Shown here: positions 50,764 to 63,757 of the stretch, one piece after another | Layout: each line of letters starts with the position of its first letter | Numbering within the stretch: the stretch's first letter is position 1 | DNA from: Edaphochlamys debaryana | Taxonomy: Eukaryota; Chlorophyta; Chlorophyceae; Chlamydomonadales | NCBI GenBank assembly: GCA_016858145.1 | Contig: JAEHOE010000116.1 | Coordinates: 126,501-190,500, forward strand | Length of the DNA stretch: 64,000 nucleotides | Reading direction: 5' to 3' | Translations under genes and position numbers: made by a program | Notes under the pieces: model-generated | Seen by the model: only the letters and a program-made list of their open reading frames with translations | What the model was told of the DNA's origin: nothing | Databases searched by the model: none

Positions 50764-53700
50764 TCAGGCCCGCCGGGCCCGCTTGGGCCCAGCCTTCTTG
50801 GTCCCGGCCTCCTTGGGCCCGGTCTCGGCCTCCTGCAGCCGCTCCGCCTCCCCCGCGGCGGCCTCTGCGGCCCCCGGCGCCGCCACCACGCCCCAGCAGC
50901 CCGCCTCCTCCTGCACCCCCTCGGGCCGGAACAGCCCCTCCACCGCCCCCCCGGGCGCCTGGCTCATGGCCAGCTTCCTCAGAGCCTTGGCCCCGGCCTT
51001 GTCCTGGGGGGTGGCGAGGGGGGGTTCAAGAAGAGGGGGTTCAAGAAGAGGAGGAGCGCACGCTTGGGGGGGGGCGCCACCAGCCCGAGCACTGCCCCTC
51101 GAGGGGCCCCGTGGAGGACGGAGGGACGGCCGTGAGCACAGGCGCAGGCGCGAGGGATGCACAGCCGGAAAGCCGTCTGCTCCCAGCCCAGCCTCATGCA
51201 AACACAGTTGAGGCCCAAGCTGGGCCCCCCGCAGGCCCACCCCCAGGCCCACCCACCTGGCGCATGCGGCCGAGCACGTACTCGCTCGCCTCCGCCTCCC
51301 CGCACTCCGCCAGCCGCCGCTTGCGGTTCTTGGCCATGACGCGGCGGGAGCCCTCGGCGAAGCCCCGCCACGCCGCCACCACGCCCCGCCGCAGCCACAG
51401 CGCCGAGCCGATGCGGGCGGCGCTGCCCGAGGTGGCCGTGATGGGCTGGGGGCGTGGCGGGGGGGGAGGGGGAGGTAAGGGGAGGGGAGGGAGAGGAGGG
51501 CGGGTGCTTGGCCGCAGGCTGCAGGCGTCAGGCTGCAGGGCAGGGGGCTGGGCGCGGGAAGGGAGCGCACACTGCACTCGGGCGCACAAATCACCCGCCG
51601 CACCCATTCCCTCCGCCCCCACCCCCCATCCACCCCCACCCCCCATCCACCCCCCCACGCCCCACCTCAGTGCCGTGCACCACCACGCGTGTGGCCAGGA
51701 GCAGCGTGGTGCCGTGCAGGGGCGTGAACTGGGGGGGGCAAGGGGAAGGGGGGAGACAGGGGGCCAGGGGAGGCAGGCTGTTGAGGGTGCTCTTGCCCTG
51801 GGCCGACTGCGAAGTCCAGGGAGGCTGCAAGGCAAGGCAGGAAGGGGCGGCAGAGGCAGCGGCAGAGGCAGCGGCAGAAGCAGCAGCAGCGGCAGCGGCG
51901 GCCAAGACGCGGCGGAAGGGCGCCGCCGCAGCCCTCAGGGGCGCCACCCGCGCTCGCAGGGGCGCCACGGGCGCAGGCGCTGGGCCCAGCGCTGCGCCTG
52001 GGGGCGCTTGCGGAGCCGGCGCGAGCACGGGGGCGGGGCCGAGCGGCACGTGCCCACGCGCCGGCGCGGCTTCGGCCGGCGCTGGCCCGAGCGCTGTGGC
52101 CGGGAGCGGAGCCGCGGCCGGGCTTGCAGGCGAGGCCGGGCCGAGCTCCGCTCCAGCGCCGGCCGCTGCTGCGGGCGAGGCGGCGCTTCCGTATCCCGTG
52201 GCGGGGAGCGAGGCGGCGCTGCGGCTGCTGGGGTGCTACCCGTTTCGGCTGGGCGCCTGCGCTCTGGTGGCGAATCACCTGGCCCTGCCCCTGCCCATCG
52301 ACGAATGGGAGCGCCTGCAGCGCGTGCCTCTGGGCGGCGGCTCGTCCTGGGAGGAGATCGAAGGTGGGTGCGCGGGGCTACTGGAGCACGGTTCAGCAGG
52401 TTGGGGGTCGGGTTGGGAAGGTGGACACGCCATGTCATAATGCCGGAAGGGCCATGATTGTTAGGCAGGTTGAGGGCCCGTCCCGAGCCTTACAGGCCCT
52501 CATGCCTCCCTCTCTCGTGCAGGCGCACCCAACCTGGGTGCAGAGCCAACCACGGGTGGCGTGTCGCGCTACACTAAAGCACCCTCGCCCCCATCCCCAG
52601 CCCCCCCCCCACCTGGATGCCCAGGCTGGTCAGCACGAAGGCGCCCCCCTCGATGCGGCCCTCCCCCGCCAGCGCCCACAGGATGAAGGACAGGGGGGGG
52701 TCGGCCTGGTCGATGTGGGGGCGGTTGTGGTAGTTCTGGGGGCGGCGGAGGGGCAGGGGGGGGAGGCTGGGGTTACTCGGAAGCGGGGATTACTCGGAGG
52801 CGGAGGTTACAAGGGCAGACACACGGCGAGTGTGGCACGGGCACAGCGCAGGGGCTGGAGCCGGAAGGGGGCGGGGCCCAGAGCAGGCCCGGCCAGGCCC
52901 GGCAGGCGGTCGCCCCTCCCCCTGCCCCACCCCTACCTTGGCGTACGACAGCGTGCCGAAGGGCCCCAGCCGCCCGCCCGCCTCCCCAGCCGCCTTCGCC
53001 GCCTTCTTTCCCCCCTGCGCCGCGGCCCCCTGCCCCGCCTCCCGCCCCGCCCCCGGCGCCAGCAGCTCCCGCAGCAGCGGCCCCAGGCGGGGGCAGTAGG
53101 CGGTGAGCAGGGCGTGGTGGTGGGGGTGCCGCGCCGCCAGCAGCGCCGAGGCGGAGCCCAGCACTCGGGCCAGGGCGGCGCGGGCCTTGCCCCGGTGGGC
53201 GCCCAGCAGGTGCGCGTAGCTGGGGGGGTGGGGTGGGCGGTAGAGGGGGGAGGCGGAGGGGGGCAGGGGAGGAAAGGGCGGTGTGGAGGGGTGCGCGGAG
53301 CGGGTGGAGCCGAGGACACGACACAGGGGGAGGGGAGGGGCGCCCGCCCGCAGGCTGCATGGGGCGCTGCCCGTGCAAGTGAGCGCCGTCTTGCCCTTGG
53401 CGCCTGGCACCCAGGGGCCCCTTCGCGCCTGGCACTTCCCCCACCAACACCAGTCTTCCCGCCCCCCGCTCACAGTCCGGGGGCCGATGTGTGCGTGGAG
53501 GGCGCGTAGGTGAGGCCGGCCGTCTTCAGCGGCACCGCCCCCGCTGCGGTCTTGGAGCGGCCGCGGGGCTGCGCCGCAAAGGCCTTGGCCGCAGCGGCCG
53601 CCTCGAAGTCCCCCGCCACTCGGTCAACGCGGGCCTGGGGGGGAGGGGAAACATGGGTTCAGCGCACGTGGGGGAAGCGCGCCGGGGTCAGGCCGGGGTG

Positions 53701-54375
53701 TGGCACAGCGGCCCCCGCTTCACCAGGGCGCCCCTGTCCCCGTGTTCCCCCCCCCCCAGACCCCGGCCCCGCCTCACCCTCTCCGCCGCCTCTGCGGGCG
53801 TCTCCGTGCACACCGCCACGGGGGACAGGCGCCGCTGGCCGTTGGCGCCCCGCCAGGTCATGAGGCACACAAAGCCCTTGCCCGTGTAGTCCACCAGGCG
53901 CGGGTGCTGATGGGGCTTGCGCGCGCGGTCGGTCAGGTGGTCCCACGTGAACAGCAGCACGTCTACGTCAGCAGGCGTCTCTGCGTCCATCCCCACGGCC
54001 TGGAGCAGAGCCGCGCGCTGCTTGGGGTCGCGGACGAGGTGGGGATGCTCATCGCCCGGCGCCTGCGCTGACTCCGCGAGGGCAACATCCACGCGAGTTA
54101 TCGCCTCGCCCAAGGTCTCATTGACTTCCCTCGAGACACTGTCGGGGGCCAAGGGCGCCAGTCAGCTCGGTTTTGGTCGGGACGCAGTTTGGCGCCATTT
54201 CGCGCAAGGCGAGATTCCTGCCAAGCAACCGGCGCCGAGCAACTGACCAGCATCCCACTCACATAACAACCACTTGCTCCTTTGCGCCCGACGTCGTTGG
54301 GCGTCGCACGTCGGGTTGCTCGCGGGCTTTCTCCTTGGCCGTCGCCTTCTTGGAAGGAGCCTTCTTCGACTTCAT
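50764..54375 (-). CDS. TET/JBP-family 2OG-Fe(II) dioxygenase, CMD1-like
   Basis: TET/JBP dioxygenases oxidise methylated bases in DNA; algal CMD1 instead adds a vitamin-C-derived glyceryl group to 5-methylcytosine. Exons are 54375-54263, 54138-53778, 53634-53474, 53219-52937, 52735-52613, 51728-51666, 51445-51257 and 51003-50764, giving 510 residues with all phases consistent. The iron site is visible: NYHNRPHIDQAD supplies His313 and Asp315, with Asp318 three residues on. GGAFVLTSLGIQFTPLHGTT leads to the distal His365 in RVVVHGTE. This layout fits the algal/fungal TET/JBP group and, as I recall it, CMD1. The N terminus is Lys-rich (MKSKKAPSKKATAKEKA) and the C terminus basic (KKAGPKRARRA), as expected for a nuclear protein. 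Intron 5 is unusually long (884 nt). The gene lies just downstream of a DNMT1-type gene on the same strand. Whether it oxidises 5mC or acts as CMD1 cannot be told from sequence. Confidence 0.75.
51790..52370 (+). other. Antisense open frame inside intron 5 of the TET/JBP gene
   Basis: On the plus strand a long frame runs through the 884-nt intron. Its last part has non-repetitive, coding-like composition (EAALRLLGCYPFRLGACALV, then LPIDEWERLQRVPLGGG) and ends at a donor-like GAAG|GTGGGT near 52363. The upstream part is Ala/Gly-rich repeat, including GGCAGAGGCAGC units near 51848. No family is recognised, and no start or partner exon is assigned. It may be a nested gene, part of an inserted element or chance. 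Confidence 0.25.
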
Positions 54376-55317
54376 TGTGTCCTCTTTACGCAGAAGACAA
54401 TGTGGACGACGCCTGGAGCAGGCTACGTGATCTGCAGAGCTCTTGAAATGTAATTGCGCTTGCTAGTACGACGAATTCCCCCCCGCAGGCCGCAGCCCCC
54501 ACTGCCCCCCGCACGCGCAGGGGTCCGCTGCTCACGCCCATCACCGTCAATGCGTGTACCAGCTGGTCGCTGCGTACCAGCCCACGCCTGCTTAATTTTC
54601 TGCCGCCGCTACAGACCATGCCGCGGAGGTGCGCTGACTGCAAGCGACGACTCCATGCCCGCCGAGGCGACGGCCCGCAGCGTCAAGTCATCGGTGGTCA
54701 GAATGAGGGACCACCAAGCACCCCACAAGGGCGGTGAGCCGACCGCAAGGGTGACAGCCACACGCCACGCCCCCTCCACGCATCCAGCCGTCTCCCTCTG
54801 TCAAGACCCAGAGTCACCACCAACCCCACCGCCACCCACGTGCCTTGAGGCCACTGCCCCTGCCCCCGCTGCACTCAATCGTTTGCGCCACGCGCTCGAG
54901 TGACAGTCCCTGAAGGAGCTGAAGCCCCGCTGCTCTGTTTCCGCATGACTCCCGTGACTCCCAGACAGCCGCCCGCTTGCTCCCTTCCCTACCTCCCTGC
55001 ACCTCGTCCCCTCCCCCCCCCCCCCCACCGCCATGCCACGTCGTGTCCGTGCGCCCCGCCGTCCGCGCCACCCCCCAGCATCGGTGCCCCCGAGCAAGGC
55101 CAACCGCCCCAAGTCGCACCCCCGGCAGGGCCCCGAGCAACCATCGATCCACACAGGGCTCCTGGCGGGGTCGGCGCTAAGGAGAGGCGGCGCCATGGGG
55201 GCCGGCAGCGGGGCCCGCGGGCGGCGCAGTTGGGGGCGTGGGTGCCTGCTGTGGGGGTGTCGGCAGGCGAAACGTCAGGAACCGGTTCAGGCAACGCACC
55301 AGCTCGACACGGCCCCA
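54376..55317. promoter_or_regulatory. Spacer between DNMT1-type and TET/JBP genes
   Basis: This 942-base interval separates the 3' end of the methyltransferase gene from the start of the dioxygenase gene on the same strand. It should hold the DNMT1 3' UTR and the dioxygenase promoter. It is C-rich in the middle (a run near 55014-55027). No motif is called, and no exon is recognised, although a further DNMT1 exon cannot be excluded. Confidence 0.4.
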
Positions 55318-58300
55318 TCACTGCACAACCATGGCTTCCCCATCTAACGATGCACACGTGTGAGCCCCCGCCCCGCCCCTCACCTGCTGCCCCGCCGCCT
55401 TCTTGGCCCCTCCGGCCGCCGCCCTCCGCAGCTGCTCGCCAAGCGCCGCCGCCAGCGGGGGCGGCACGGCGTTGCCCACCTGGCGAATGCGGGCGTCGGG
55501 GGGGCCGGTGAACACGTGGGCGTCGGAAAAGCCCTGGGGGTGGGGGGCAGGAGGGATGGGCAGACGTCACGTTGATGCGGCGGGAAGGGCGGGTACGTGC
55601 GTGAGGGAGGGATTCCGGGGTGGCGCGGCCTGTGCTGCAGCCTCACTTCGAACCCCTCCCCTTGCTTGCCGGGCAGGCCGTGCAGTACCCGTGTACCAGA
55701 GTGCAGCCCTGGTCCCTGCACCGCTCCCCCTCGCCCGCTCTCCCTCGCCGTCCCCCCACCCCATGCCTACCTGCCCCCTCGCCCGCTCCCGCACGCTGAG
55801 CATGCGGTGCTGCCCCCCCTCTGCGTCGGGGTGCACCCAGCCCCGCGAGCCGCGGGCCTCGGGCTGCGCCCCCGTGGTGGCGGTGGGGAGCAGGCCGCGG
55901 TAGGAGCGCCTGGGGGGGGGGAATGGGGGCAGGGCGGTATAAGGTGGGGGGCAGGTCGGACGGCCGCCCATCAGGCTTGCCGTGAGGGCGGGTGGGCTAG
56001 CGCAATGCAGGTCCGCCGCTCGCTGACCCCACTCCACCCTCGGCCCCGGCCGGTCCCCTCGGCCTGCCCCGACCCCCGCGGCCCACCTGCTCAGTAAGTT
56101 CTCCCCATATTTTTTCCCCACCGCCCGCTTGGCCGCCGCCTTGCCCGCCCAGGTGGGGTCGAGCAGGGGCTCCAGGGGGGTGCCCAGGAGCGCGGTCCAG
56201 TCCCGGCCGTTAGGGATGCCGCTAGAAAGGGGATGCGGGTGGGTGCGGGGGCGGGGGTGGGGGGACACGGGCAAGCGGGGAGGGATGGAGGGCTTCCAGG
56301 CAGGCGGGCACAATGCCACCGTCTGCTACAGAAAAGGGGGTCCCGGCACGGGTGTGGCGGCCAGCCAGGCCAAGGCCCCGCGGTTGCCGCGTCAGCAACA
56401 GCCCACTCACGCCAGCATCCGCCGCTCTCGCTCCTCGGGGGTGATGTCCTCCAGGCCGGCGGGGGCCTCGCCCTTCCACGGCAGCTTGCTGGGCGGCATC
56501 AGCACGTGGTCCCGCAGCAGCAGCCACGCCCCCGTCCCCGCCGTCGCCCCCGACTCATCACCCTGTGCCCCGGTCCTGCTGGCAGCCTCGTCGTCAGCGC
56601 CGCTGCCGCCTGCCGCCGGCCCGTGCGCTCCCTGCGCCGGTGCACCCTGAGCCCCGGGGCTGCAGAGCTCGGGGCCGGGCCCGGCGGCCGTGTCCGCTGC
56701 GGCGGTGCGGGGCTGCCGCATGGCGGCGGCGAAGGGGGAGTGGGGCGGCATCGTGTGGGGCATCACGGGGCTGGGGGAGGGGGGGGCGGGAGGCGAGGGG
56801 GGTGAAGGGTGTGTGGGAAGAGGTGTGGAGTAGGCGGAAAGCGCACGGCAAAGCAGCTCAACAGTCCACGCACAGGGCCCGCGGGCGCCCCTTCCCTTTC
56901 CCTCCATGCACAGTCTAGTGAGCACCCCTTCATCCCCCGCACTCACGCGCCCCGGTCACTGCCCCCCTTGAGTGGGGGCAGGTCAGCGATGGCCTCACGG
57001 ATAGTGACCGTGGGGGCGGGGGCGCCGTGGCAGCGGCCCGGGTGGGCGGAGGCCACGTACTTGCCACCGGGCAGGTCCAGGCCGGTGGGGCACGCGGGCG
57101 CGGCGGTGCGGGGCGCGGGCCAGCCGGGCAGGGCCTCACCGGGCGCCGCCGCCCACACGAAGGCGCGCTGGCGTACCTGGGGGACGCCGTAGTGGGAGGC
57201 GTTGAGCGCTCCGATGCGGGCCTGCGGGTGGGGGCGGGGGTTGCGGGGGGTTGCGGGGGGTGGAGGGGAGGGAGCGAGGGCGGCGGAGGGCGGCGGCGCG
57301 GGAGGGAGGGAGGTCAGTGAGCAGTGGGAGCCCATGAGCCGTGCCATGCTGCACGGCCTCGTCCCGCACGTGTGGGGCCATCGCCGGCCACCACCTCTGC
57401 CCTTGTCCGCCAAGATCTCCCGCCCCCGGCCCCGCCCCCACCTGGTACCCCATGGCCAGCAGGGAGGCGAGCGTAAGCCGGGCATAGTAGTTGAGCGGCT
57501 TGGGCGGCGGCTTGGGGGCCTTGGGGGACTTGCGGGCCCGGGAGGCCTTGGCGGGAGCCGCCGAGGGGCTGGGCTCCGAGCTGGAGCTGGGACCGGCGCC
57601 TTGGCTGGCCTCAGCCTCCGCCTCCGCCTCCGCCTTGGCCTCCTCGGCGTCCGCCCCCGCCACGCCCACCTTGTCAGTCCCCGCCCTCAGCTCCTCCCCA
57701 GCCTCGGTCCTCAGCTCATTCTCAGCTCCCGGCTCCGTGCTGCTCTCCTCCTCGGCCTCCGCCGCCGTGTCCGGCTCAGGGCCGTCCGTGCCCTCCGACT
57801 CTGACACGCTGCCGCCCTCAGCGCCGTCCTCGCTGCCGCCGCCGCCGCTGCTTCCGGCCTCGACCTCGCTGCCGCCGCCGCTGCCGCCCTCCCGGTCGCT
57901 GGCGCTCCGGCTCTTGTCCTCGCTCCCGCCCTCCCGGTCGCTGCCTCCGGCCTCGCCGCCCGCCTCCTCGTCCTCCTTGAAGGGCTGCAGGAAGCCGACG
58001 ACGTTCTCCAGCAGGAAGAAGCGCGGGCGGTAGAAGTCCAGGTACGAGAGGAAGGCCAGGACCTGGTGGGGAACAGGAGAAACAGGCAAGGGTAGAGCGG
58101 GGCTGTAGGCGTGCTCGGAAGAGCGGGGCACAAGGATGGACTGTCGGGTGCGGGGGGCAAGGCGTGATGCAGCAGCACGAAGCGCCGACTGGACTCCTAA
58201 CTGGACTGGACTCCTAATAGTATAACCAAGAGTCGCTGAACGGCGAACAGGTCAATGTCTCTTCGTGTTTGGCGTTTGGGGAGTTCAAACTCGCCAGCCG

Positions 58301-61300
58301 CGACAGCTAGGACAGAAGAACGACAGGCTCACCGATCAAAGCCTACTCCACCTTCTACAATTATTGAGCATAACTGTAAAGCGGTTACTGAATGTTCGTA
58401 AACCTGAGCGCGATGGCATTGACAAGCTACTGCCGGGCTTGTGCGGACAAACTAAGAAGCTCCGCAAGTTCAGCAGTGTGAGCGTGTATCGCGACGGCGG
58501 CAGTACCCACCATGGCGTTCTGGCTCATGGCGTCCGCGGTGATGCCCCGCCCCTCGTTCAGTCGGCTGAAGCCGGGGCATGGCGGCCCCCCCGCCAGCAG
58601 CTCCACCTCCCCGGGGGCCGGCAGCCGCGCCGCCAGCTCGGGCGGTATCTCCCGGGCGCCCTTCTGAGCCTCGGGGGAGGCCACACAGCTGGCCTGCACA
58701 CCCGCACGTGTCATGGCGGCCTGGGGTGGCGGGGGACAGCAGGAGGGACACGCCTTTGGCGTCAGGGACGGAGGATGTGGAGAAATTGCTGCCAGTGTTA
58801 GGGGCTAGCCATTTGCGGCTTCCGCAAACGCTACGTCTACCGCAGACGCTGGTCCTGGCCCCCGCCGGCCCCCACCAGCAGCAGGTGCGTGCAGTCCCGC
58901 ACGAACAGGCCCACGGAGGGGAAGTTGGCGCTGAATGCGGCGGCGGCTTCGGGGTCCAGCTCCACGGCCCAGCGGGTGCAGGCGGCGCCGGACTGGCGGA
59001 GGTGGAGGGGGGGGGGGGTCAGAGGGGAGCAAGGAGCAGGGCAGGGGTCAGCTGGGGCATGCAGGGAGGGCAGGCCGGGCCGTGCGGAGCTCCAGTCAGG
59101 GCCCTACACCCGCCCCTCCCCCGCCCCTCCCCACCTGGTGCAGCCCCTCGCTGAGGCCCCCCACTCCGGCGAACACGTCCATGGCGGCCAGGGGCGGGGG
59201 GGAGGGGGCGGGGGGGGGGAGGGGGCGGGGGGGAGGGGGGCGGGGGGGGGGACGGAGGGGGGGAGGGGAGGGGAAGAGGCATGTGATGAGGAGGGGCTGA
59301 AGCGGCCTAGCCCCTGACCGTGTCCCCTCTCCCCTCCTTCACCTCACTCACCCTCCGCCTCGCCGGGCCTCTGGCAGCGCCCTGCCACGCGCGTCGCCGG
59401 CACCTCCTCCTCCTCTCCGCCCTCGTCCTCGTCCTCCCCCGCCTCCTCAGCGCCGAACGCGGGTGCGGACAGCGGGCGGACCTGGGTAGCAGGGCGGGCA
59501 GGAGCGAGGGGGAAGGGCGCACGTCAAAGGACTGCCGTGGCCCCAAGCGGTGTCCGCTAGAGGCCATACTGCACGGCCCTGACCCTGGCCCACCCTCTAC
59601 TCCCTACCATGCCCCCAACACCCGCGGCCCAAGGTCTCCTCCCCGCTTCACCCGCAGCGTGGGGCAGGCGTAGCTCTCATCGTTGTTCCCCTTGCCCGCG
59701 AATGCGGGCTCTGCCCCTGCCTCCGCCCCCTCTGCTTCAGCGCCGCCGGGCGGCAGTACCTCCAGCAGCCGCGCCCGGGCCCACACACCCCCGGCGCTGT
59801 CTTTCCCTGGGAGAGATTCGGAGGTGGAGGGCAGGGGGGCGGGCTGGGGGGCCAGCCACAGCAGGTCGCCAACCTAAGGGGGGGGGAGGGGGAGGTACAC
59901 GAGGGGAGTGTCAGGGCAGTGGGCAGGCGGGCGCCTTGAGTGTGCCACCAAGACCCCTGGCCTGACCACCCATCCCCAGCCCCCCACGCACCCTGTACTC
60001 CACGCCGTCCAGCTCCAGCCCCTCCCCGGGCCCCCCCGGCAGCAGGCGCCAGGCGGGGCCGGGCGGGCGCTGTCCGGGCGGCGGCACGGGCACACCCGTG
60101 GGCAGCTCCTCGGGCAGCGGGTTGCGGAAGGCGGCCTGGCGGGGCGCGTAGGTGAGGCGGTAGAACAGCCGCGGGGGCAGGCCGTTCCTGTGGCGGTCTG
60201 TGTTGTCCTCACGGCGCTGCCGGTCGGCCTGGCGGGGTGGGGGTGAAGGGAAGGTCGACGAGGGCCAACTCATTGTGGTGTTACGATTAGCAGGTTCGAG
60301 CGGCAGAAGTAGAATGCCCCAAGCAAAACCGTAATTGGCATCCCAAAGCGATAAATCCTGTATTGTAGCACAACCACCTCTGCCCCCCGCTGACACACTA
60401 CCCCTGCCCCCGCAGAGACCCTGCATGTCCCCCTCCCCCCACGCACCTGGTGGTTGGGCGCCCTGGCGGTGTGGCCGGCGGCCCGGGTGGTGAGGGGCTC
60501 GGCGGGCAGCAGTCCGACCACCTCGGCGCACACCACCGGGGCGCCGCAGGGGGCCAGGGCCACCTGTCGGGCGCCGGCCTTGGACTTGGACTTGGACTTG
60601 GCCTTGGGCTTGGGCTTGGAGCCGCCCTGCCCCTGCCCCTGCTGCTGCTGGGGGTTGAGCCGCGCCGCCAGCAGCGTGTGCTCGGGCAGGCAGCGGTAGG
60701 CCGCCTCCTTGGGGCCGTGCAGGTGGCCCGCCAGGCCCCCGACCGCCCCGTGCGGCGCGGGCGGGGGCAGGGCCGTGTCCAGGATGAAGAGCTCCGCGGG
60801 GTCGGCCGCATCGCCCAGGAGCGTGGCGTCGCCGGGCACCAGGCGCCGGAGCTGGGGGAGAAGGAGGAAGGAGGGGGGAGGGGAAGTGGAGGGAAGAGAA
60901 CTAGAGAAGGGAAGCTGTTGAGGAGATGCACACGAATGAAATTAATAGCGTCCTCGAAAATCCCGAGCCTCTCCCGCTCACCTGCACCCACAGCTCCTGC
61001 TCGGCGCCCTCCCCGCCCTCCGGTGCCGCCCCGTAGACCGCCATGACCAGGGCCACCTCGCCCTCCGCCACCACGGGCGGATGCGGGGAGCGCTTGCGCC
61101 AGGGGGTGGGGCCCAGGTCGGGTGCCTGCACCGAGGGCCGCAGCACCACCACACTGCCGGGCCGCAGCTCCTCGCCCTCGCCCCGCGCCGCCGCACCGAA
61201 CAGCGCCAGAGCGGGGGAGGAGCTGGGGCGGGGGTCGAGCGGCAGCCAGGCGGGGCCGGAGGCGGGAGCGGGCGAGGAGCCGGCGGAGGGGGAGGCGGTA

Positions 61301-63360
61301 TCGGCGACGGATCCGGAGGGCGAGGCCGGCTCGGTGGAGGATGTGGAGGGTGAGGCGGGGTCGGCGGCGGGCTCGGCGGCGGAGGCGACGGCCGAGGCGG
61401 CGGGCTCGGCGGCGGAGGCGACGGCGGAGGTGGGCTCGGCGGCGGAGGCGACGGCGGAGGTGGGCTCGGCGGCGGAGGCGACGGCGGATGACGTGGGTTC
61501 GGCGGCGGAGGCGACGGCGGCGGAGGTGGGCTTGGCGGCGGAGGCGACGGCGGCGGAGGCGACGGCGGAGGCGACTTGCTTGGAGCGGGCGAGCAGGAGG
61601 GCCACCGCCTCGGCCACTCCGGGCTGTGGGGGGGTGCATGGCGAGCGAGGGGAGGGGAGGAAGCGGGAGGGGCGGGCGGGCGGCGCTCTTCAGTGCTTGA
61701 CGGTGCATGCGGGGTGGTGCGCACTTGGGCCAAAGGAAAGATGGCACCGCTGCGAGGCTCACCGGCCGCTGCCCGGCGCCCCCCAGGCGGAGGGCGAAGT
61801 AGGCGCTCCAGATGAAGGCGACCTGGGGCGGGAGGGGGGTTGGGGGCACGGGTGGGTAGGAGGCCTGCCTGCTCCTGGCGATTTACCGCACGCAAGCCGC
61901 TCCATCCCTTGGGGCCCCCACTCCCTCAGCCCCTGGCCCCACGCACCAGCTCGGTGCAGGCGGCGGGCAGCAGCGGCGCCGCGGGGCCGGGGGAAGCCTT
62001 GGACGTGCTGACCTGCACGCGGGGGGGAAGGGAGGGGACAGGCTTGGCCGAGTACGAGGGCCGAGCCAGGCAGCCAGGTGAAGGAGTGGACAATCAACGG
62101 GGCTTGGGGCGACTGGTGGGAAGGTGCAACGTGCGGCGGTCCGGGCGTTGCTACACCCATACATGTGGTGTCCGACCCACGCACCCCGCGCAGGCGGCTG
62201 CCGCGGGCCCTGCCCGAGCCCTTGACCCGCACGGCCCGCGGCTGCTGCGGCGAGGGCGGGGCGGGCAGCAGCACGCGGTGCACCAGCCGCTCCCCGGCGG
62301 ACGTGGGCAGGGCTGCAGCGCAGGCAGGGGGCGGGCAGGGGCTCCTCAGTGCAGGGGCGCAAGTCAAGTTGCCGCAGCTGCGGAGGTCCGGCCAGGCAGG
62401 AGCGGTAAGTGTCCCAGCAGCAGGCGCCGCTCTCTCACCCTAGCCCCCACCGGCCCACCCCCACTCACGCAGGTGCACCAGCCGCAGGCGCAGGCGCTTG
62501 AGGTGCGCCTCCAGGGACACGGGGGCCGCAGCCTGCCCCTGCCCCCGCCCCCGCCCCAGCTGCCCCGGCAGCACCTGCACCGGCTCCAGCCAGGGTTGCC
62601 CGCCCAGCCGCAGTGCACCCGGACCCACTTCGTCACCCGCCACAGCCGGCCGCCGCCCTCAGCGGGGCCCCAGCTGCCGTCCGTGCGGGCCCCGCCCCCC
62701 GCCTCGCCCTCCGCCCCATCGGCGGTGCATGCGGTGCAGGTGCAGATGATCATCCAGGTCTCCGCCCACCGGCCGTCGTCGCCCCTCCGCGCCTTCCCGC
62801 CCTCCCCGCCATGGGGCACGGGGATGCCCATGCGCAGGGCGCCGCGCTTGCGGGGGGCGGAGGCGAGGTCGGGGCTGGCGGAGCGGTCCCGGCACTGGAC
62901 CTCGAGCTGGAGTGGGGGGAGGGGGGAGGGGGTGGGGAAGTGAGCAAGGCTGTGAAGCAAGGGGGTGGGGTTTGGCGGTGAAGACGGCTGTGCTCCCAGC
63001 CAGTGCGTGCGGCATACGGCTCACCTGGCTGGGGAAGTCGGGGACCTGGGGGGCGGGGGGCACCCAGCAGTCGCCTCCGTCGGTCAGGGGCCCCAGCCCC
63101 GCCGCCAGGGCCGCCATCAGCGCCGACCGCTGCGCCCGCGCCCCGCCACCCTCGCCGTCTTGGCAACACCCCCGTCCGCTTTCAACGCCTTGGCAGCACG
63201 CCCGGCCCCGGTCCTGGCGGCTGCTTTGGCCGCCCTTCTCCGGCCCTCGCCCTGCGCCCGAGCCCCAGAGGCTGCTTTGGACACCTTTCCATGGCCCTCG
63301 TCCCCAGCAGGCTCCGCCTCAGCTGCGCCCTTTCCCGCCGCAAGGGCAGAGGCCGCGGAG

Positions 63361-63391
<31 letters not shown>

Positions 63392-63757
63392 GCAGCTGCT
63401 CGGCAGGCGGACCCTCGGGCGCTCGAGCTCGAGCCACTCGCGAGGACGGCCGCTTGCGGGAAGCGCCCGAGCCGTCGCCGGCCTGACGAGGGGTAGCAGG
63501 GGCACGGGGGCAGGAGGCGGGGTGAGGAGGCGGAGCTCAGGTCGGGTCAACGCCAGCGCGTCAGCGCCCTCGGAACGCGCCGCCGCCCCGCCGCCAGCCC
63601 AACTCACCGCACGCAGAGGGACTAACCGGTCGACCCTGCCCCTCAGCGGAGGAGGCGGTGGGGGAGCCAGGGATCGGGCGCGAGGCGCAAAGCTGACTAC
63701 CGGGGCCGCGGGGCGCGCTTGCGGCCGCGCGCCGCTGAGCACCCTGCCGCCGAACAT
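55318..63757 (-). CDS. DNMT1/MET1-type DNA (cytosine-5) methyltransferase
   Basis: Maintenance-type methyltransferases copy CG methylation after replication. From 62312 down the exons are 62312-62185, 62012-61947, 61822-61763, 61623-60982, 60851-60447, 60228-59992, 59873-59652, 59481-59352, 59187-59135, 58992-58876, 58720-58511, 58062-57442, 57221-56947, 56770-56411, 56221-56087, 55909-55771 and 55533-55318. The N-terminal part (63757-63608, about 63489-63025, about 62910-62456) is less certain. BAH-like regions include RPGSVVVLRPSV to DPAELFILD, and VGDLLWLAP onward. Catalytic motifs: I MDVFAGVGGLSEGLHQ, II WAVELDPEAA, IV GGPPCPGFSRLN, VI RFFLLENVVGF, VIII VRQRAFVWAAAPGE, IX-X HRMLSVRERARGQGF and RQVGNAVPPPLAAALG. 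Oddities: Pro replaces Gln in motif IV, an acidic insertion of about 145 residues follows motif VI, and the motif I exon lacks an AG acceptor. Total is roughly 1,600 residues. The C terminus may be altered by an intron after KKAAGQQ. Confidence 0.88.
61366..61580. repeat. Coding minisatellite in the DNMT1-type gene
   Basis: A unit of about 30 bases (GGGCTCGGCGGCGGAGGCGA, then CGGCGGAGGT on the plus strand) is repeated with variation, encoding repeated VASAAEPTSA on the minus strand within exon 61623-60982. Unit length varies by multiples of three, so the frame is kept. It forms a disordered Ala/Ser/Glu/Pro linker before the BAH-like region. Confidence 0.8.

Follow-up and report, generated by a model that had tools for sequence, protein, structure and literature searches.

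The window, a 64,000-nucleotide stretch of an Edaphochlamys debaryana contig, carries a gene for a TET/JBP-superfamily Fe(II) dioxygenase (HYH03_015142) and, directly upstream of it on the minus strand, a gene for a methyltransferase derived from DNMT1/MET1. With a probability of roughly 0.58, we read these as two separately transcribed nuclear genes that are neighbors by happenstance, the first encoding an enzyme of a little-known TET/JBP group sister to CMD1 and the second a duplicated methyltransferase. CMD1 is the Chlamydomonas reinhardtii enzyme that places a glyceryl group derived from vitamin C on 5-methylcytosine (5mC), giving 5gmC; its structures are PDB entries 7cy4–7cy8. The nuclear location of both genes, their separate transcription, and their independence of one another are what we infer. 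The dioxygenase would most likely bind a flipped-out cytosine or 5mC in DNA, and most likely oxidizes or derivatizes its methyl group, using Fe(II), O2, and some co-substrate. The methyltransferase, provided that its transcript is spliced, would produce 5mC. Since 5mC produced by any of the cell's methyltransferases could serve such a dioxygenase, adjacency of the two genes would not be needed.

Organization of the Locus

That the two genes adjoin on the same strand, as the first-pass annotation had it, is confirmed (modeled methyltransferase, 61822–55177, then dioxygenase, 54375–50764; Table 1). Its separation of 942 bases should be corrected to 801 bp, counted from the methyltransferase stop at 55177 to the dioxygenase ATG at 54375. 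This value is measured between the coding regions and takes in the untranslated ends, whereas the median of 555 bp given in the genome paper (PMC8226300) is an intergenic distance; a gap of this size is unremarkable in this alga. Since the genes are arranged head-to-tail, they have no divergent promoter in common. Linkage of the dioxygenase to a transposon was also considered and is not supported, because the gap between the genes is non-repetitive and protein queries found relatives at C37 and C59 only.

Table 1. Features of the methyltransferase–dioxygenase locus (positions in the window)
Feature	Position	Strand	Remarks
DNMT1/MET1-derived methyltransferase	55177..61822	-	16 modeled 3' exons
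Methyltransferase 5' part, provisional	61823..63757	-	ATG 63757
Motif-I exon (DVFAGVGGLSEGL) of methyltransferase	59135..59191	-	No AG directly before
Inter-coding gap	54376..55176	.	801 bp; sole genome match besides itself, 59 bp at 83%
TET/JBP-superfamily Fe(II) dioxygenase gene HYH03_015142	50764..54375	-	8 exons, 510-aa model
HxD exon (H313, D315), base-reading D318, W326	52613..52735	-	Aligned with CMD1
Distal iron ligand exon (H365), T367	51666..51728	-	Aligned with CMD1
Exon with R379, W385, R387	51257..51445	-	CMD1 R410, F416, R418
Intron-5 insert of HYH03_015142	51849..52549	.	701 bp, 100% identical to C28:155732-156432

The Dioxygenase Gene and Its Relatives

The exons of HYH03_015142 are joined across seven GT-AG introns into a single open frame. 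The annotated protein (P0001) corresponds to residues 88–510 of our model and starts at its Met88; the ATG of the model is provisional. A second annotated isoform (P0002) has 102 additional amino acids between the HxD motif and the distal histidine, and these are read on the minus strand inside the intron-5 insert. A plus-strand open stretch in this intron was rejected as a gene of its own; it belongs to the duplicated piece in common with C28. The protein has Lys/Arg-rich stretches at both ends.

The iron ligands of the TET-like core were placed by sequence, the predicted structure (mean pLDDT 36.6) being too poor for use. When a profile of the subfamily was searched against the PDB, CMD1 was the best match (E = 1.9e-19) and a photosystem protein the next (0.007); comparison of profile against profile gave an hhalign probability of 97.9. 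Neither AlkB/JmjC entries nor any TET structure other than CMD1 was found among the 56 PDB sequences up to an E value of 10. The best-scoring Pfam family on HYH03_015142 was PF12851 (Tet_JBP), at 26.4 to 26.8 bits, yet below its cut-off of 34.9; PF20515 and PF13640 were weaker, and no AlkB/JmjC family matched. The protein database assigns PF12851 to P0001, and an NCBIfam search of P0001, P0003, and P0004 returned nothing. The original assignment to TET/JBP rather than to AlkB/JmjC agrees with these Pfam and PDB matches.

In a tree of six sequences, HYH03_015142, the C37 protein, P0004, and P0006 (HXX76_011079 of Chlamydomonas incerta) are separated from P0003 and CMD1 with a bootstrap of 100. 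HYH03_015142 consequently lies outside the CMD1 group in this tree, in a sister subfamily with a C. incerta member, and the earlier description of it as CMD1-like is right for the superfamily and wrong for the CMD1 group. Another TET/JBP-superfamily gene of the same genome, HYH03_010914 (P0003, contig C59), does group with CMD1, at 42% identity, and the N-terminal half of its product is unlike that of HYH03_015142; a partial second copy of it (P0005) exists. With one gene grouping with CMD1 and two in the sister subfamily, E. debaryana allows one to ask what the other TET/JBP enzymes of algae make.

Protein searches with the full-length dioxygenase (8000 scored candidates) and with its catalytic region (1756 candidates) returned its own two isoforms only, and no relative turned up among the viral contigs scanned. 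A four-row profile matched 6 proteins among 8000 scored candidates; CMD1 and the C37 protein were missing from the six, and the search should therefore not be taken as a census. Neither PF00145 nor PF12851 matched when run on the E. debaryana genome, presumably an effect of introns interrupting the domains, and PF12851 was silent in the control genomes too. Loci were counted with protein queries instead.

Active Site of the Dioxygenase

Across the aligned core, HYH03_015142 and CMD1 are 29% identical. The three iron ligands (H, D, H) are kept as H313, D315, and H365. The two residues that hold the base in CMD1, D350 and R418, are retained as D318 and R387, and F416 of the base pocket is replaced by another aromatic residue, W385. 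Also retained are W358, I356, F371, T399, S335, and R410 (CMD1 numbering), while V342 is changed to Asn. In the vitamin C pocket, S335, W358, and T399 are kept and both T337 and S414 have become Ala; the stretch of CMD1 with R244 and H249 gave no reliable alignment. The position of Thr337, which is essential in CMD1, deserves particular attention: it is Thr in four of the six sequences, Ser in the C59 protein, and Ala in HYH03_015142 only, which makes the co-substrate and the activity of this enzyme uncertain.

One could build on these changes (Ala for T337, Asn for V342, and Trp for F416, with Trp358 kept) a nuclear writer–modifier locus, in which the methyltransferase would feed a TET/JBP enzyme that is not a CMD1 and that makes an undescribed cytosine modification with some other co-substrate. 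We consider this very improbable.

The Methyltransferase Gene

The first reading of this gene as a DNMT1-type methyltransferase is upheld by PF00145 (112.3 bits; cut-off, 22) and by its best PDB matches, which are entries named DNMT1 (E = 2e-75); some of the matched entries we take to be plant MET1. A further group, with 4fsx, matched at 3e-28; the printed name of 4fsx is also DNMT1, and presumably it is a plant chromomethylase. Motifs I, IV (PCP), VI (ENV), VIII, and X, in what we assume to be their usual numbering, are present in the same order as in DNMT1/MET1. The gene differs from DNMT1/MET1 in having PCP rather than PCQ in motif IV and a long acidic stretch inserted between motifs VI and VIII; another E. 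debaryana gene, on C30, carries PCQ together with a MET1-like block at the C-terminus. The methyltransferase gene in the window is a recent duplicate, with a dS of about 0.22 to the C24 copy. An intron (58063–58510) looked repeat-like, an impression that was rejected when bases 58120–58460 proved to be single copy.

Ahead of the methyltransferase domain there is a weak alignment to a DNMT1 chain (1.3 bits), and neither BAH nor RFD was found by Pfam in the parts searched, which exclude the exons between 61823 and 62636. Such an architecture might suggest that the gene is of the plastid kind, like DMT1a and DMT1b of C. reinhardtii, in which case the two enzymes would work in separate compartments and have no substrate in common. 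C. reinhardtii is described as having two chloroplast DNMT1-related enzymes that lack conserved N-terminal motifs (PMC9861306), the first 50 residues of the provisional N-terminus here include 11 Pro, 9 Arg, and 8 Ala with 1 acidic residue, and the dioxygenase has basic ends. However, the 5' exons are provisional and the leader was judged by its composition alone, the C24 copy has no clear leader by eye, and the BAH negative is weak because Pfam likewise detected no BAH when given ten open frames from the region on C30. We regard a plastid enzyme as unlikely and keep to two nuclear genes.

Splicing Before Motif I

The junction that precedes motif I should be treated with caution. To join the methyltransferase frame, the motif-I exon had to be forced to begin at 59191; before this exon the C24 copy carries an in-phase CAG, whereas the copy in the window has no AG there. 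For the conserved donor there is no plausible in-frame acceptor in the assembly: the frame is restored only by introns of 5, 23, or 38 nt, and the 5-nt intron leads to a stop. From other donors, with introns of at least 60 nt, four joins give an open in-frame proline-rich linker before motif I. The junction sits in a poly-C tract, and an assembly error may be involved. The earlier statement that both active-site motif sets are present is accurate as to the motifs themselves and needs qualifying on two counts, the Ala at Thr337 in the dioxygenase and the motif-I exon of the methyltransferase that has no plausible acceptor.

Is one or both of the genes decaying? In that event, a splice acceptor would be gone from the methyltransferase, and the dioxygenase would have given up an essential Thr and gained a large intron insert. 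The very short introns demanded by the conserved donor would fit, as would the in-frame TAA of the C24 copy, the Ala seen in HYH03_015142 alone of six sequences, and the dN/dS between the window and C24 copies, which is 0.46 over 800 well-aligned codons and 0.64 with all 1030 codons counted. Against decay, the annotated dioxygenase frame is open across its eight exons, the methyltransferase exons are open and resemble those of C24, the four joins from other donors keep the frame open, and the poly-C tract may offer a technical cause for the missing acceptor. Decay is improbable in our judgment, and unconnected genes are still the reading that we prefer.

How Often the Genes Are Paired

Among the E. 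debaryana loci found, with 16–20 kb examined at each, the pairing occurs at one of four methyltransferase loci and one of three dioxygenase loci. No dioxygenase lies within the 20 kb examined around the C24 methyltransferase copy, and no methyltransferase within the 16–20 kb examined at either of the other two dioxygenase loci, where the methyltransferase scan had a control. From the 19,228 genes given for the species (PMC8226300) and these four and three loci, we calculate about 0.00125 chance adjacencies, a figure to be read in the light of a pair picked after being seen and of locus counts that are lower bounds. Adjacency is improbable by this simple counting, which leaves room for a link between the genes. 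The comparison of gene order covers one genome, that of E. debaryana.

The link proposed in the first-pass annotation was a functional module, co-inheritance, or co-regulation. In a module of this kind, 5mC made by the methyltransferase would be converted by the neighboring dioxygenase, and selection or shared regulation would hold the genes together. Their adjacency on one strand speaks for it, as do two known systems. In C. reinhardtii, enzymes of the same two kinds, Dnmt1 and CMD1, are reported to act in series, 5gmC being undetected in a Dnmt1 knockout (PMC12458080), and in phages a C5-methyltransferase gene is described as often combined with a TET/JBP gene (PMC12730594). The module is nonetheless unsupported at this locus, and we think it quite unlikely: the pairing was seen once and is missing, in the stretches examined, from the other copy of the methyltransferase and from the remaining two dioxygenase loci; the order is head-to-tail across a gap of ordinary length; one splice junction of the methyltransferase is doubtful in the assembly; and the dioxygenase falls outside the CMD1 group.

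The phage sets resemble the E. debaryana pair in having writer and dioxygenase in one genome, with serial action (PMC12730594); they differ in belonging to a viral hypermodification pathway with glycosyltransferases. Should the neighbors prove to be a unit, they would be a eukaryotic parallel of these sets. According to the 5gmC mapping paper, there are no reports of 5gmC outside C. reinhardtii (PMC12458080). The window itself shows a CpG deficit (0.763) and an excess of TpG/CpA (1.259), a pattern in its own composition that would fit deamination of 5mC.

Gene structures and neighbourhood

The genome used here comprises 141.9 Mb in 502 contigs, with the window lying within contig C116; the published Edaphochlamys debaryana assembly has 19,228 genes and spans 142.14 Mb across 527 contigs (PMC8226300). 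The first-pass annotation placed a DNMT1-type methyltransferase next to a TET/JBP dioxygenase on the same strand. This neighbourhood is real, both gene structures being read on the minus strand, but the coding gap is 801 bp and not the 942 bases originally given.

All seven dioxygenase introns are GT-AG. Since the annotated isoform P0001 equals only residues 88-510 of the 510-aa model, the start of the model is doubtful. The 16-exon methyltransferase frame is conditional on the exon carrying motif I starting at 59191, a site without AG.

Coordinates of the genes, related loci and insert (window positions unless a contig is named)
Feature	Position	Strand	Remarks
Dioxygenase HYH03_015142, E. debaryana	54375-50764	minus	8 exons, joined frame of 510 aa; also a locus in the genome search (protein query, E up to 1)
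Dioxygenase locus, contig C37	C37:617080-618639		protein query, E up to 1
Dioxygenase locus, contig C59	C59:581035-581262		protein query, E up to 1
Insert in dioxygenase intron 5 (L067)	51849-52549		701 bp, 100% identical to C28:155732-156432
Methyltransferase (METHYLTRANSFERASE)	stop 55177, 16 exons from 61822 onward	minus	joined in frame
Methyltransferase 5' part	back to ATG 63757	minus	provisional

A CAG/GGC-rich repeat marks the start of the intron-5 insert, and by eye its two ends show no target-site duplication; the insert is explained either by a templated insertion that happened very recently or by the assembly. Isoform P0002 is annotated as translating part of the insert, which adds 102 aa after the HxD and before the distal His; the Tet_JBP score of this isoform drops to 14.4 bits.

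The dioxygenase

CMD1, the Chlamydomonas reinhardtii enzyme, is the one PDB sequence that matches the dioxygenase well (E 2.8e-13 with the single protein, 1.9e-19 with a subfamily profile); the profile search of PDB returned no other TET structure, and neither AlkB nor JmjC. Its Pfam Tet_JBP score lies under the cut-off, yet this is the top family.

Residues were mapped by alignment to CMD1, with roles taken from the CMD1 paper (PMC7854593; CMD1 numbers in brackets). The iron ligands (H313, D315, H365) and base readers (D318 [D350], R387 [R418]) are retained, as are W326 (W358), I324, F339, T367 (T399), S303 (S335) and R379 (R410), and CMD1 position 416 is again aromatic (W385). Three residues are lost: T337 (Ala305), V342 (Asn310) and S414 (Ala383). 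Alanine at position 337 occurs in one of the six sequences compared, the window's own. T337A abolishes CMD1 activity, but W358 is kept, and this residue occupies the site at which the far carboxylate of 2-oxoglutarate is bound in TET enzymes (both PMC7854593); the evidence on co-substrate is therefore mixed.

Against its own genome the protein gave 12 matches (E up to 1) at three loci; a CMD1 fragment matched C59 alone. Over the alignment, the C37 locus shares 45% identity with the window protein; the C59 gene (HYH03_010914, P0003) shares 42% with CMD1 across their common core. In a six-sequence tree (192 columns), a split with bootstrap 100 places the window protein, C37, P0004 (source lgn) and P0006 of C. 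incerta on one side and P0003 and CMD1 on the other. The label "CMD1-like" is right for the superfamily only, and we read the protein as a real but uncharacterised sister enzyme of CMD1. Support within its group is low (51, 74), which makes any orthology there tentative. P0006 (HXX76_011079) lacks the HxD stretch, probably through a gene-model fault.

P0001, P0004 and P0006 share a conserved C-terminal F...V....GCW.V motif, where the subfamily profile aligns weakly with photosystem I PsaH (E 0.007), probably by chance. By eye, the N-terminal half of P0003 (L035) is Cys/His-rich and zinc-finger-like. This gene also has a partial second copy (P0005, HYH03_010680), which would be in keeping with a mobile element.

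The methyltransferase

All 32 PDB sequences matching the methyltransferase at E up to 0.001 are named cytosine methyltransferases, DNMT1 entries foremost. Matches fall at four loci: the window, C24, C101 and C30. We infer that the C30 gene, which has PCQ and, at the C-terminal end, a block resembling MET1, is the best candidate for the maintenance enzyme. Judged by sequence, the window and C24 genes are duplicates, with 85% identity, dS ~0.22 and dN/dS ~0.46 over 800 well-aligned codons, a filter biased toward conserved codons; dN/dS is 0.64 over all 1030 counted codons. A long, acidic low-complexity insert between motifs VI and VIII (57500-58000) is shorter in C24.

Both genes had been credited with their active-site motif sets. 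The motifs stand in both, but the dioxygenase has Ala305 in place of T337, and the integrity of the DNMT1-derived methyltransferase gene is doubtful. C24 has an in-phase CAG before this exon, whereas the window has CG in a longer poly-C tract (by eye). For the conserved donor, no acceptor farther away than 38 nt keeps the frame; other donors give four open joins. Assembly error, different splicing or a damaged gene could each account for the junction. The C24 copy itself has TAA in place of a glutamate codon (C24:549744). The poly-C tract (59191-59296) lies where a linker before the DNMT1 catalytic domain is expected and, via the other donors, would be a proline-rich linker if translated.

Module or chance

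That the two genes form a functional module had been suggested, and we consider this improbable: the neighbourhood is real, and we found no evidence for a working unit. Around the C24, C101 and C30 methyltransferases, 17 to 20 kb were scanned and no dioxygenase was found; around the C37 and C59 dioxygenases, a scan of 16 to 20 kb found no methyltransferase. As controls, the dioxygenase query recovers C37 and the methyltransferase query recovers C24 (14 stretches). Pairing in this genome is thus seen at one of four methyltransferase and one of three dioxygenase loci (16-20 kb examined per locus). The head-to-tail spacing is ordinary, since intergenic distances in this alga have a median of 555 bp (PMC8226300) and the 801 bp include untranslated ends. 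A plain count gives ~0.00125 expected adjacencies, for a pair chosen after it was seen, when numerous pairs of functionally related genes might have been chosen instead. Chance neighbourhood is the leading reading.

Two chloroplast DNMT1-related enzymes are described in C. reinhardtii (PMC9861306). The provisional methyltransferase leader looks transit-peptide-like in composition only, and the basic ends of the dioxygenase could be nuclear signals; were both readings right, the enzymes would be kept in separate compartments.
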